Source: Sulfurimonas sp. HSL-1716
GTDB lineage: Bacteria; Campylobacterota; Campylobacteria; Campylobacterales; Sulfurimonadaceae
Assembly: GCF_039645975.1 (NCBI RefSeq)
Contig: NZ_CP147918.1
Span: 496,001-560,000, forward strand
DNA length: 64,000 bases
Reading direction: 5' to 3'
A program made the position numbers and the translations under genes. The notes below the pieces were generated by a model. That model was given only the letters and a program-made list of their open reading frames with translations, made no database searches and was not told where the DNA came from. This document shows positions 21,289-26,229 of the stretch, one piece after another. How positions within the stretch are numbered: the stretch's first letter is position 1; every line of letters begins with the position of its first letter.

Positions 21289-21330
21289 AAGCAAATTGTA
21301 GCATAAGCTTGAATGTGAGATAATAGTTTT

Positions 21331-21639
21331 ATGTTTTATAATCTGGAATTTTCTTTTTGGTATCTGTTTCTCGGCTCGATCCTTACATATCTGGTATGGG
21401 GATTCATAGTCGCTTTTGAGGTGGTACTGGGGATGGGCGGTTCAAAAATAGCGCTGAGTTGGATAAAAAAACATCATACGTATAAACTTCTGTATAAGGA
21501 AGTTGCCGCTTTTTATCCTATGATCCTTGTCGTATACCTGTTTTTAGAACTGATCCCTCACTATATTTTTAAAGAGGAACCATTGATAAAATTCGATTTA
21601 GATAAATTATTCGAGGATTTATATGCAGACGATCGATAA
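21331..21639 (+). CDS. Small membrane protein at the head of the exonuclease-MoxR-VWA operon
   Basis: The 102-residue protein has two hydrophobic segments (residues ~8-33 and ~60-78) and an acidic C-terminus (DLDKLFEDLYADD). No family is recognised. Its start is 42 bases from a divergent membrane gene, and its last 17 bases overlap the next gene, so it belongs to the operon that continues to 26229. Confidence 0.65.
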   Translation: MFYNLEFSFWYLFLGSILTYLVWGFIVAFEVVLGMGGSKIALSWIKKHHTYKLLYKEVAAFYPMILVVYLFLELIPHYIFKEEPLIKFDLDKLFEDLYADDR

Positions 21640-22012
21640 GAAACGGCTGATCAAAGAACCGTTGGACAAAGATACGCTAAAACTTGCACAAGCCATTTAC
21701 AGTACGTATATCGCCAATGAAAAAGATCCCTACATGTATATATCGTTAAAAAGATTGTTTAATCTTTTCGGGTTTGACGATAGTAGTGCGTCCTTGTCCA
21801 AAATAATAGAGATATTTATAGATCTGACGGAACCTATCGCAGTCGAGAACTTTGAATACGGCGGAAGAAAATACCCTAAAATCATACTTACTTTTTGTAC
21901 TTTTGAAGAGATACAAAAGGATGGAGACGGACATATGGAGATAGAGTTGAACGAGATGTATTTAGAAGCAATGAAAAACTATATGTTAGACCCTTTTTTG
22001 GATATCAAGTAA
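21623..22012 (+). CDS. Conserved-looking small acidic protein, unknown function
   Basis: The 129-residue soluble protein has a helical first half (LKLAQAIYSTYIANEKDPYM, SLKRLFNLFGF) and a second half with LTEPIAVENFEYGGRKYPKI and EIELNEMYLEAMKNYMLDPF. The layout resembles a winged-helix or replication-initiator fold, but this is only an impression. GAGG precedes the ATG. It overlaps both the gene before (17 bases) and the exonuclease gene after (1 base, TAATG). Confidence 0.6.
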   Translation: MQTIDKKRLIKEPLDKDTLKLAQAIYSTYIANEKDPYMYISLKRLFNLFGFDDSSASLSKIIEIFIDLTEPIAVENFEYGGRKYPKIILTFCTFEEIQKDGDGHMEIELNEMYLEAMKNYMLDPFLDIK

Positions 22013-22752
22013 TGGCAAAATATATCATCTTGGATACGGAAACGACGGGTGCGGGTGAGAGTGACCGTATCATCCAGCTTGGGTACATGGTCCTTGGAAA
22101 CGGCGACATCGAAGTGCAAAACGAATTTTGCTCCACAGACGTTCCTATCTCGTTTGGAGCGATGGAGGTTCACCATATCACTCCCGAGATGATCGCGGAC
22201 AAACCCGTATGCAAAGATACACAGGCGTATAAAAGGCTGCTTGAGCTCAATACCGAGGAGAATTATGTCATTATCCATAATGCTCCTTTTGATATCGGTA
22301 TGCTTGAAAAAGAGGGTTTTTCCCTAAAAATGAAACTGATCGACACGCTGAGGTGTGCAAAACATATCTTTGAAGATGAAGAAGCGCACAGACTACAGTT
22401 TTTTCGCTATAAGATGGGACTTTACAAACAAGAAGAAGCGGAAGCGAAAAAGCTCGGCATAGAGGTCAAAGCCCATGACGCTATAGGCGATGTGCTTACC
22501 TTAAAACTTTTTTTGACCGAGCTGAAAAAATCTATCGAAGAAAGATTTGCAGGTGAAAACCCGGTCGAAAAGATGGTGTATCTTACTCAAGAACCGATCT
22601 TTATAAAAACTTTCAGGTTCGGAAAATACAAAGGCAAAAGCCTGGCGGATGTTGCAGCCGAAGATGCCGGATATCTGCGATGGATGCTCAAATCGATGGA
22701 CAATATCGACGTCGATCTGAAATATTCGATAGAAAAAGTGCTCTCTTTATGA
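22012..22752 (+). CDS. DEDDh 3'-5' exonuclease (DnaQ-like) with a C-terminal DUF3820-like domain
   Basis: The 246-residue protein has ExoI DTETTG at residues 8-13, ExoII HNAPFD ending at Asp94 and ExoIII H155-DAIG-D160, so all DEDDh catalytic residues are present. The C-terminal 45 residues (FRFGKYKGKSLADVA, DAGYLRWML) form the small domain often attached to such exonucleases. It lacks polymerase-binding motifs that I can recognise and sits inside the MoxR-VWA operon with 1-base and ATGA overlaps, so a repair or nucleic-acid processing role linked to that ATPase is likely. Confidence 0.88.
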   Translation: MAKYIILDTETTGAGESDRIIQLGYMVLGNGDIEVQNEFCSTDVPISFGAMEVHHITPEMIADKPVCKDTQAYKRLLELNTEENYVIIHNAPFDIGMLEKEGFSLKMKLIDTLRCAKHIFEDEEAHRLQFFRYKMGLYKQEEAEAKKLGIEVKAHDAIGDVLTLKLFLTELKKSIEERFAGENPVEKMVYLTQEPIFIKTFRFGKYKGKSLADVAAEDAGYLRWMLKSMDNIDVDLKYSIEKVLSL

Positions 22753-24089
22753 AGATCGATGAGCTAAAAGATAAAACTCTCTTGCTTTTTGGTAAACCGG
22801 GAGCTTTTGAAAGAGATGAGTTTGATTATCAGCTTCATACTTTCAATATAACGGTCCTAAATGAGTATAGCGATAGCGTTTCATACATCGTAGAGGGCAG
22901 ACTGATGACCCCTTATGAGCAAAACGAATCAGACAGGCTCTATGAAAAGGGTTTAAAGGAGAAGTTTATAAGTATCGATGTATTGGAAGAGACCTTGATC
23001 GAAAATATCGATGCCGATTCACTTTTAATGAGTTTGAAACTTTCCCATGACAGGGTCAGATTGTTATCGTATATTAAGAATCCGAAAATAAACGACGCTC
23101 TTTTTTTTCAGCTGATGAAACTTTACGATTGGCAGAATGAAGGATTCTTTGAAAATGATGAAAACCGTGACGTCACCGCGGCATTGATATCCAGATTTTA
23201 CGAGAATATAGAAAGAAACCATAATGTACAATATGCGGCATTGGGGCTTATGCATTTGATAGAACAGACCACGGACGGGAATCTGATCGAAGCCATAAGC
23301 ACGCTTTCTCCGATAAAAAACGGGTTTTCCAACGCCTCTTTATATCCGATAATACTTTCGATCGCAAAAAACAGTGTCACTCCCGACTCAGTGCTAAAAA
23401 TACTGCTTAAAAACGGGAATCTAGAGATCAGAAAGATCATAGCGTCAAAAGAGAATCTTGATGCAGATTTGCAAAACATACTTTTTTCTTTGAACGAAGA
23501 ACAGATCAATATATCGCTTTGCAAAAATCCGAATCTTGCTCCTGAGCTTGTGAAACAGCTACAAGAGAATTTTTCCGATATCATCGCGGAAAATCTTTTG
23601 CTTGATAATGAATCTTTTGAATTTTTTTCACAGATTTCTCCTAAATATCTGGCAAAGAACAAGACATTGACAAAACGGATGCAAGATAAACTTTTGTCGC
23701 TGAATAACAAAGAGGTAACGGCATCCTTGGCGACAAATTCGAATATCGACGAGAATATCGCAGATGAGATATTGCTTCTCGGCGACGATGAGATAAATCT
23801 CTCTTTGTTCTCAAACGAAATGGTAAAAGAGGAGAACCTGAGAGAAGCTTATCTGCATGAAAAAAACTACCTCTCTCTTGCCGGAAACTCGAAGACACCG
23901 GAAGATATTTTGCGAAAATTGGCATCTGAAGGAGATATTGAGATCATCAAGGCATTGTGTAAAAATCCTTCAACCCCGGTAGATCTTTTGTATGAATTCA
24001 GGCTCGATCAAAGACTGGAGCGTTTAGTGAGCCAAAACGAAGCGTTTGCAGATCATATAAAAACTCAAAACATAGGATGGCAGGATTGA
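22749..24089 (+). CDS. BRCT-like N-terminal domain plus leucine-rich variant (LRV) repeat protein
   Basis: The 446-residue protein starts at the ATG at 22749 (ATGA overlap with the exonuclease stop). Residues ~5-85 resemble a BRCT fold (KTLLLFGKPGAFERDEFDYQ, then SYIVEGR and FISIDVLEETL). From ~130 onward come repeats of ~23-25 residues with an N-P/S-x-x-P-ped-lL pattern, for example LAGNSKTPEDILRKLASEGD and LCKNPSTPVDLLYEF, typical of LRV/HEAT-like solenoids. It is probably an adaptor that binds proteins or nucleic acid for the neighbouring MoxR-VWA pair. No catalytic motif is seen. Confidence 0.72.
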   Translation: MKIDELKDKTLLLFGKPGAFERDEFDYQLHTFNITVLNEYSDSVSYIVEGRLMTPYEQNESDRLYEKGLKEKFISIDVLEETLIENIDADSLLMSLKLSHDRVRLLSYIKNPKINDALFFQLMKLYDWQNEGFFENDENRDVTAALISRFYENIERNHNVQYAALGLMHLIEQTTDGNLIEAISTLSPIKNGFSNASLYPIILSIAKNSVTPDSVLKILLKNGNLEIRKIIASKENLDADLQNILFSLNEEQINISLCKNPNLAPELVKQLQENFSDIIAENLLLDNESFEFFSQISPKYLAKNKTLTKRMQDKLLSLNNKEVTASLATNSNIDENIADEILLLGDDEINLSLFSNEMVKEENLREAYLHEKNYLSLAGNSKTPEDILRKLASEGDIEIIKALCKNPSTPVDLLYEFRLDQRLERLVSQNEAFADHIKTQNIGWQD

Positions 24090-25075
24090 AAGCAAGCGAG
24101 ATAAAAAACTCCGTAGAAGCGATGGTAGAACAGAAAATACCGACATTTCTCTGGGGTGCTCCAGGAATCGGAAAGTCATCTATCATACGGCAGATAGCCG
24201 AACAAAAAGATATAGGCTTTATAGATCTGCGTCTCTCTTTGATGGACCCTACTGACTTGAAAGGGATACCCTTTTACGATAAGCATGAACACTCGGCCGT
24301 ATGGGCCGCTCCCTCGTTTTTGCCAAAAGAGGGGAGAGGAATACTCTTTTTGGATGAACTCAACTCCGCACCGCCTGCCGTCCAAGCTTCGGCATATCAG
24401 CTGATACTGGACAGACGTGTAGGAGAGTATGAACTTCCTGCAGGCTGGGCGATCGTGGCTGCGGGAAACCGGGAGAGTGACAGGGGCGTGGTCTATAGGA
24501 TGCCATCACCCCTTGCCAACCGTTTCGTGCATCTGGAGATGGATGTGGATGTGGGAGATTATAAGGAGTGGGCGTTTAAAAACGGTATCGATGAGCGTAT
24601 CATCGCCTATGTCGGCTACAAGAACGAGAACCTTTTTACCTTCGATGCTACAAAGAACGAAAAAAGCTTTGCAACGCCGAGAAGCTGGGAGTTTGTTGAC
24701 AGAGTCTTGAAATCACCTATGGACGAAAAGCTGCTTTTAGACAGTATAGGAGGGGCGGTCGGACACGATATCGCAGTCGATTTTTTGAGTTTTTGCAAAG
24801 TTGCCGGCAGACTGCCGGACATCGAGGAGATACTTGCTTCTGGTGAGGGTGAATACCCAAGCGATGTGGATGTACTTTATGCGCTTAGTGCAGGACTCGT
24901 TTCAAAGACTTTGAAAAATAAAGAGCGGCTGGACAACCTTCTGCGTTATACCTTGGAATTGCAAAGCGAATTTGCCGTCATGATAGTTCAGGAACTCCAA
25001 CGCTACGGTGTAAGGATGGAACACTCGCAGGAGTTTAAGAACTGGGTGCGAAAGTTTAGTTATCTGCTCTCATGA
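24077..25075 (+). CDS. MoxR-family AAA+ ATPase
   Basis: The 332-residue AAA+ protein has Walker A GAPGIGKSS at residues 27-35, Walker B ILFLDELN at 89-96, sensor-1 AIVAAGNRESD and the arginine-finger region SPLANRFVHLEM. MoxR ATPases act as chaperone-like remodelers together with a von Willebrand A partner. That partner is encoded immediately downstream with an ATGA overlap; upstream, the LRV gene overlaps by 13 bases. The target is not known; the linked exonuclease and LRV protein are candidates. Confidence 0.93.
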   Translation: MAGLKASEIKNSVEAMVEQKIPTFLWGAPGIGKSSIIRQIAEQKDIGFIDLRLSLMDPTDLKGIPFYDKHEHSAVWAAPSFLPKEGRGILFLDELNSAPPAVQASAYQLILDRRVGEYELPAGWAIVAAGNRESDRGVVYRMPSPLANRFVHLEMDVDVGDYKEWAFKNGIDERIIAYVGYKNENLFTFDATKNEKSFATPRSWEFVDRVLKSPMDEKLLLDSIGGAVGHDIAVDFLSFCKVAGRLPDIEEILASGEGEYPSDVDVLYALSAGLVSKTLKNKERLDNLLRYTLELQSEFAVMIVQELQRYGVRMEHSQEFKNWVRKFSYLLS

Positions 25076-26229
25076 GTCTGCAAGCAAAGATATCCCGCGC
25101 AAAGGCCAAACTTTTGGTCGATTATCCCTATTTCGGTACGCTTGCAAGCAGGCTAAAACTGATAAAAAATGAAAATATCTCCGCATTTCTAAGCGACGGA
25201 ACGAAACTGGAATATAACGACGAGTATCTGAAATCTTTAGAGATAAGCGAGCTGGAGTTTGCTTTGAGCAACGGTGCGATGCATACGGTACTTTCACATC
25301 AAAACCGTAAAAACTCCCGTTATGGCTGGCTTTGGCAGCTCTCTACCGACTATGCGATAAACTCCATGCTCGTTCAAAACGGTCTTGATATGCCTTTGGG
25401 CGTTAACTATGATCCGCGATTTGAGGGTCTGTATGCAGAAGAGATATACGAGATACTTCGCGACGAGATAAAAAACGAGGAGTTCAGCGATAATGAGAGT
25501 GACGAGACGGGATTCAACGAAGATAACAAACGTCACAACAACAAACAAAACAGTTCCGGCAGCAGCGATAAAAAAGATGAGAATGCGCCGAAGATGGAGG
25601 TTGAGAACATCGTAGATGAGGAACTGCTCTCAACAATGAACGAAAAGCTGATCCAAGATGAACTTATCCGCGGTGATCTGCCTTTAGGACTTGATAGGTT
25701 CTTTGATCTGACTTCTTCTTCGAAGATAGACTGGAGAGAAAAGCTGAGAGATGCGATAGACCGCTTTTATAAAGATGACTACAGGGTTCTTCCGCCCGCT
25801 AAAAAGCTGTTGTATCTCGGCACCTACCTGCCTTCGCTTACAAGCAACAGGTTTAAGCTTACTATTGCCATAGACAGTTCGGGTTCGGTAGATGAACAGA
25901 TGTTAAGTTCTTTTATGAGCGAGGTAAACTCCATAATGCTGAGCATTTCAAACTATGAAATAGATATTTTGGTTGCCGATGCGAAGGTATATTCCCATGA
26001 AACTTTTTATGAGGGAGACGAACTTCTCTACACGTTAAAAGGAGGGGGCGGGACCGATTTTAGACCTGTCTTTGAGTACATAGAACAAAATCTCTATGAC
26101 ACTGCATTACTGCTTTATTTTACCGATCTAAACGGGATGTTTCCAAAAGAGCAGCCGCTATATAACGTAGCGTGGATAGCACCTAAAAAAAGCGATATCC
26201 CTTTTGGAGAACTTATCGTTATGGACTAG
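25072..26229 (+). CDS. DUF2201-type VWA protein with degenerate metallopeptidase-like N-terminus
   Basis: The 385-residue protein has an N-terminal DUF2201-like putative metallopeptidase region (1-~130), a disordered Asn/Ser/Lys-rich linker (~138-175) and a C-terminal VWA domain with an intact MIDAS: D268-S-S-G-S272, T328 in GGGGTDF and TDLNG at 351-355. Where relatives have HExxH, this protein reads NGAMH at residues 67-71, so zinc peptidase activity is unlikely. It is the partner of the MoxR ATPase before it and is last in the operon. Confidence 0.85.
   Translation: MSLQAKISRAKAKLLVDYPYFGTLASRLKLIKNENISAFLSDGTKLEYNDEYLKSLEISELEFALSNGAMHTVLSHQNRKNSRYGWLWQLSTDYAINSMLVQNGLDMPLGVNYDPRFEGLYAEEIYEILRDEIKNEEFSDNESDETGFNEDNKRHNNKQNSSGSSDKKDENAPKMEVENIVDEELLSTMNEKLIQDELIRGDLPLGLDRFFDLTSSSKIDWREKLRDAIDRFYKDDYRVLPPAKKLLYLGTYLPSLTSNRFKLTIAIDSSGSVDEQMLSSFMSEVNSIMLSISNYEIDILVADAKVYSHETFYEGDELLYTLKGGGGTDFRPVFEYIEQNLYDTALLLYFTDLNGMFPKEQPLYNVAWIAPKKSDIPFGELIVMD

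Follow-up and report, generated by a model that had tools for sequence, protein, structure and literature searches.

Does a MoxR-family AAA+ ATPase that shares an operon with an exonuclease work on nucleic acids, or does it belong to a partnership of its own? The question is raised by positions 21331 to 26229 of a 64,000-nucleotide stretch of Sulfurimonas sp. HSL-1716 DNA, referred to here as the window (NZ_CP147918.1, positions 496,001 to 560,000, part of a single 2.26-Mb contig). This segment holds six open reading frames (ORFs), g1 to g6, all on the plus strand, with successive overlaps of 17, 1 (TAATG), 4 (ATGA), 13 and 4 (ATGA) bases. An initial annotation had described an operon with overlaps of 1-17 bases at TAATG or ATGA junctions, containing a DEDDh exonuclease, a BRCT-like/LRV protein, a MoxR ATPase and a VWA protein; the gene layout is confirmed and the domain calls were right. 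The six genes form two consecutive modules, a g4-g5-g6 core (hereafter the trio) and a separable g2-g3 module to which g1 sometimes belongs. The conserved unit is probably a three-component remodelling machine made of g4, g5 and g6, cotranscribed here with the separable WH1-ExoX module (g2-g3, plus g1). Lengths below are in amino acids (aa), with the basis of each assignment in brackets.

21331-21639, plus strand: g1, small membrane protein, 102 aa, an accessory of the exonuclease module in some family members (ORF)
21623-22012, plus strand: g2, predicted WH1 winged-helix protein, 129 aa (model, Foldseek, hhalign)
22012-22752, plus strand: g3, ExoX-like DEDDh 3'-5' exonuclease, 246 aa (Pfam, invariant catalytic residues)
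22749-24089, plus strand: g4, predicted BRCT-fold domain, helical linker and LRV/HEAT-like solenoid, 446 aa (model, profiles)
24077-25075, plus strand: g5, MoxR-family AAA+ ATPase, 332 aa (Pfam, alignments)
25072-26229, plus strand: g6, DUF2201 protein with a degenerate zinc-peptidase domain and a VWA domain, 385 aa (Pfam, alignments)

Conservation of the g4-g5-g6 unit

The trio is conserved in both arrangement and distribution. Neighbourhoods were compared in 80 loci gathered by g4 similarity, the best 80 of 135 relatives, whose named taxa are Sulfurimonadaceae and other Campylobacterota, mostly Sulfurimonas and Sulfuricurvum. The MoxR gene lies directly 3' of g4 on the same strand in all 72 loci with at least 1 kb of downstream sequence, and 42 of 46 have a same-strand VWA gene no more than 8 kb away. 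A phyletic survey of 200 genomes of the class finds full-length g4 in 20, and the same 20 encode both a VWA protein and a MoxR with an identity of 51% or higher (only a fragment in G202). The Fisher value for this co-occurrence is 6e-28, which ignores relatedness and is read only as near-perfect agreement; two concordant absences of the trio (G047 and G059), in a genus that otherwise has it, add weight. Two further genomes (G023 and G149) encode a MoxR at 53-54% identity and no g4. These hold only the nif-linked pairs described below, and g4 therefore tracks its own MoxR-VWA pair specifically. Linkage and co-occurrence of g4, g5 and g6 are in this sense obligate, and they support the earlier proposal of a chaperone-like MoxR-VWA pair with the BRCT-LRV solenoid as its dedicated adaptor or partner.

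Domain architecture of the trio

From its structural model (pLDDT 91) and profile comparisons, g4 is predicted to be a BRCT-fold domain joined to an LRV solenoid. Residues 1-87 of the model follow the BRCT element order beta-alpha-beta-beta-alpha-beta-alpha, with the solenoid after. Aligned with VIA-align, the N-terminal domain matches the BRCT domain of the RFC large subunit with Z up to 6.8 (~80 residues at 3.1-3.6 A) and the solenoid matches 1lrv with Z 9.3 over 192 residues, values that are middling when taken alone. The LigA BRCT profile aligns with the g4 N-terminus at E 5e-5 (hhalign, probability 67%, 74 columns), against E of 0.095 or worse in seven control alignments; at the Pfam BRCT gathering score there is no match for g4. 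Pfam LRV_2 is matched in 12 of 21 g4 homologues at E up to 0.1 (best E 6e-14), the window's own g4 scoring below the Pfam LRV cut-off. Homologues favour the ATG at 22749 as the start of g4, upstream of which the mechanical ORF opens at 22680. In all 80 g4 sequences with a letter at the position, the Ser/Thr expected before the Gly of the phosphate pocket is Phe or Leu before G15. A phosphate-binding BRCT domain was ruled out by the missing pocket Ser/Thr, and a [4Fe-4S] LRV protein of the Azotobacter type by the absence of any invariant cysteine in the g4 alignment. Residue 18 of the window's g4 (22800-22802) is Gly where 79 of 80 aligned sequences have Arg, which is either a natural variant or a sequencing error.

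The ATPase, g5, matches Pfam AAA_3 and AAA_5, and in alignments its Walker A (K33-S34), Walker B (D93-E94), sensor-1 (N131) and arginine finger (R149) residues are invariant. The 332 residues of g5 contain no Pfam match to the RavA C-terminal domain at E up to 1, and the bpMoxR model reaches 15.8 bits against a cut-off of 27. Sequence searches of solved structures returned just midasin and an uncharacterised structure, 2r44, for g5, and nothing for g3 or g6.

For g6, Pfam gives DUF2201_N (2e-29, 103.6 bits) and DUF2201 (1e-22, 80.9 bits). The DUF2201 match runs to the last residue, 385, and there is no variable C-terminal effector. The MIDAS of the VWA domain is intact and invariant (D268, S270, S272, T328 and D352). 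The His-Glu of the HExxH motif is replaced by N67-G/A68 in 62 of 62 sequences (N67-G68 in the window), while an intact HELLH persists in a relative on the Synechocystis plasmid pSYSA. No proteolysis is therefore predicted, an active metallopeptidase having been rejected on the loss of HExxH, and g6 is best described as a putative pseudopeptidase with an intact VWA MIDAS.

The exonuclease module and its relation to the trio

The exonuclease g3 matches Pfam RNase_T (6e-17) and ExoX-like_C (4e-11). Its five catalytic residues (D8, E10, D94, H155 and D160) are present, as the initial annotation had claimed in calling the enzyme intact, and all are invariant in relatives. The DEDDh domain and the ExoX-like C-terminal motif are shared with E. 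coli exodeoxyribonuclease X, from which g3 differs in falling below the NCBIfam equivalog cut-off (104.2 bits, cut-off 202) and in having a WH1 partner. A second ExoX-like paralogue, 36% identical, is found in the same genome (G000:C1:678263-678958); most family members have two.

The protein encoded by g2, previously listed as unknown, can now be given a candidate identity. Model and profile evidence indicates a chromosomal winged-helix (WH1) domain akin to the one found at the N-terminus (Rep3_N) of plasmid replication initiators: the model (pLDDT 93) has Foldseek matches to the WH1 domains of RctB, RepA and RepE, and hhalign relates g2 to a Hydrogenimonas plasmid Rep that itself matches Rep3_N (96.9%, E 1.8e-10). 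At 129 aa it is a single domain and lacks the second winged helix of full Rep_3 initiators. In 14 of the 14 loci where g2 was found it adjoins g3; the two form their own conserved pair, and from locus to locus g2 follows the exonuclease rather than MoxR. Homologues of g1 occur in 8 of 22 loci, and g1 has no Pfam or NCBIfam family above cut-off.

Cotranscription of all six genes is predicted from the overlaps and the missing internal terminator, and as no plus-strand terminator-like site was found inside the unit the prediction is sound. Promoter-like matches within the unit number 19 against 10.9 expected by shuffling; these are weak consensus hits, and an internal promoter may exist. The best promoter-like site 5' of the unit (21315-21342) falls in the 36 bp that separate it from a divergent gene.

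Elsewhere the exonuclease is only loosely linked to the trio. In 22 of 71 loci it is the same-strand gene immediately 5' of g4. It occurs within 9 kb upstream in 27 of 49, it faces the other way within 9 kb in 10 of 49, and in 22 of 49 it was not seen within 8-9 kb of the trio. The full six-gene set is present in 6 of the 80 loci. The exonuclease is unlinked to the trio in G017 and G010, and in the genus labelled g2 it is on the opposite strand, 7-15 kb off. By genome, it occurs in 50 of 200; 31 of these are among the 180 that lack the trio, and the other 19 are among the 20 that carry it. The initial annotation had named in advance consistent co-occurrence of the exonuclease and LRV genes with MoxR-VWA as support for its proposal, a pattern that holds for the LRV gene and fails for the exonuclease.

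These counts bear directly on a repair role, in which the MoxR-VWA pair and the BRCT-LRV protein would load or activate the DEDDh exonuclease and the WH1 protein at DNA ends. Such a role draws on the tightly packed six-gene operon seen both here and in close relatives, the sharing of one unit by a BRCT domain and a WH1 protein, the near-constant presence of the exonuclease in trio genomes with its upstream position in over half of the loci (27 of 49), and a partial distance correlation of 0.41 between g3 and g4. It is unlikely, given that tight linkage is confined to a minority of loci, that the gene lies on the opposite strand in others, that 31 genomes keep the exonuclease without the trio, that exonuclease and WH1 form a conserved pair of their own, and that Phe or Leu replaces the phosphate-pocket Ser/Thr of the BRCT domain. 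Since the exonuclease is loosely linked and is found without the trio, activation of the nuclease by the ATPase-VWA pair is unsupported, and so is membership of the exonuclease in the machine. Rather than the client, g3 is more likely a repair enzyme that works independently and shares a promoter in some lineages. A bolder version, with the BRCT-LRV and pseudopeptidase-VWA ternary machine remodelling a WH1/ExoX-like nuclease DNA-end complex in fused-operon lineages, and so acting as an ATP-driven chaperone in bacterial DNA repair, appears quite improbable. Sharing an operon with a nuclease does not make the trio a nucleic acid machine.

Several observations do weigh against a self-contained g4-g5-g6 machine. 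The exonuclease in 19 of 20 trio genomes may reflect some functional tie between the two. In G030 a distance of 64 kb separates g4 from MoxR-VWA, G202 has a rearranged locus with a MoxR fragment, and G224 (L185) keeps a VWA gene without MoxR or g4. In a distance-correlation test over 27 loci, the only strong partial correlation is that between g5 and g6 (0.73), and g4 correlates more with g3 than with g5 (0.19), so that this test does not single out the trio. The VWA gene at L185 has dxs-like and flagellar fliF/fliG-like genes and a convergent response regulator as neighbours, names that come from reading the sequences.

A model for the trio

MoxR-VWA pairs have been proposed to work by capture of a peptide at the VWA MIDAS, followed by restructuring of the complex by the AAA+ ring (PMC7159879). 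For the trio we infer a complex of g4, g5 and g6 that acts on a client. The MoxR protein g5 would form an ATP-driven AAA+ ring, and the VWA domain of g6 would capture a segment of the client through its MIDAS metal. The N-terminal domain of g6, its catalytic His-Glu lost, would only bind or position. By analogy, the g4 solenoid may recognise the client, and its BRCT fold, which is without the canonical phosphate-pocket Ser/Thr, could act as a protein-protein contact. ATP hydrolysis would then remodel or mature the client complex.

Related pairs in nif clusters

Two related types of MoxR-DUF2201 pair occur in the phylum. Type 2 is found in six genomes and type 3 in six, seven genomes being involved (G006, G017, G023, G087, G149, G169 and G201; loci L135-L145), all with nifH. 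MoxR identity to g5 is 50-54% for type 2 and ~39% for type 3. The pairs adjoin NifQ, a nitrogenase-associated TIGR01616 (NifO-like) protein and ferredoxin-like proteins, and in five genomes a distance of 15-29 kb separates the type-2 pair from nifH. The VWA proteins of both types are without the catalytic Glu of HExxH, a likeness to g6; the differences are the nif linkage and the absence of g4. In five of these loci a conserved protein of ~234 aa is encoded right after the VWA gene, and two copies scanned gave no Pfam or NCBIfam match. In a FastTree phylogeny the type-2 MoxRs form a clade with support 1.0, nested among the g4-linked ones. A clean type 1 clade was not obtained; type 1 therefore denotes g4-linked MoxRs and is not monophyletic. 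This nesting, together with the different third protein, suggests that the third component may be exchangeable along with the client, and the different third protein of the nif-cluster pairs favours client-specific assembly or remodelling. A limited literature search turned up no publication that links MoxR to nif clusters.

The nif-linked pairs bring into view a more specific form of the remodelling machine, a chaperone that would mature a metabolic or respiratory (metallo)enzyme complex, in the way that CoxD-CoxE, NorQ-NorD and CbbQ-CbbO serve their own enzymes, the exonuclease gene order being incidental. Beyond the nif neighbours, this possibility finds support in the predominance of Sulfurimonas and Sulfuricurvum among the named loci and in a CoxE-type precedent (PMC4240915). 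It may be entertained only tentatively, as no client gene is conserved beside the trio among its frequent neighbours, which recur on chromosomes and look like housekeeping synteny. A nitrogenase chaperone was rejected: just 8 of the 20 genomes with the trio encode nifH, which does not follow the trio, and the client is therefore not nitrogenase.

Comparison with known MoxR-VWA systems

RavA-ViaA, CoxD-CoxE, NorQ-NorD and CbbQ-CbbO are MoxR and VWA pairs that remodel clients. Relative to RavA-ViaA and CoxD-CoxE, g5 has no match to the RavA C-terminal domain and g6 is a DUF2201 protein rather than CoxE or ViaA. Clients are known for few of the widespread MoxR-VWA pairs. With its intact ATPase and VWA domain, dead peptidase domain and obligate BRCT-LRV protein, the stable trio offers a clean case for how a third component picks the client, for which the nif-linked sister pairs, with another third protein, are a natural comparison. 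The literature searched contained no BRCT-LRV third component in a MoxR-VWA system, and no paper joining MoxR with DUF2201 or MoxR with BRCT.

The VWA protein of a jumbo-phage MoxR-vWA pair resembles g6 in its N-terminal metallopeptidase-like domain, and g6 is ~27-31% identical to DUF2201 phage proteins over most of its length. The phage pair is proposed to act in virion assembly with peptidolytic processing (PMC7824862). The trio differs in the loss of His-Glu from g6, the addition of a third protein and a chromosomal locus.

In overall layout the trio resembles the MoxR-vWA ternary systems of the VMAP, iSTAND, FtsH and beta-propeller classes (PMC7159879), which also combine a MoxR AAA+ protein, a VWA protein and a dedicated third protein. 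Here the third component is BRCT-LRV rather than VMAP, iSTAND or FtsH, no propeller is fused to the VWA domain, g6 carries an N-terminal degenerate DUF2201 peptidase domain and no effector, and the trio is conserved and mostly vertical in appearance, not diversifying. This resemblance, and a few genomes where insertions of type III restriction genes or an MNT-HEPN pair separate MoxR from VWA, are what an anti-invader ternary system of the MoxR-vWA conflict type would have in its favour. Such a defence role, which the initial annotation had raised, is highly improbable. The trio has no variable effector domain, g6 ending with its VWA domain; PADLOC matches only the generic AAA and DEDDh domains; the sequences are strongly conserved and the chromosomal neighbours recur; and g4 was not found in the phage and viral-contig collections searched. 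With nothing specific from the PADLOC scan or the viral searches, a defence island or system was rejected. A mobile or plasmid-borne trio was rejected as well, the sole plasmid match to g4 being to a Deinococcus protein and covering only its LRV repeats. At four loci (L058, L113, L116 and L121), the MoxR-VWA gap or the stretch right after MoxR takes up cargo, which includes type III restriction-modification, RhuM, an Eco57I-type methylase and an MNT-HEPN pair.

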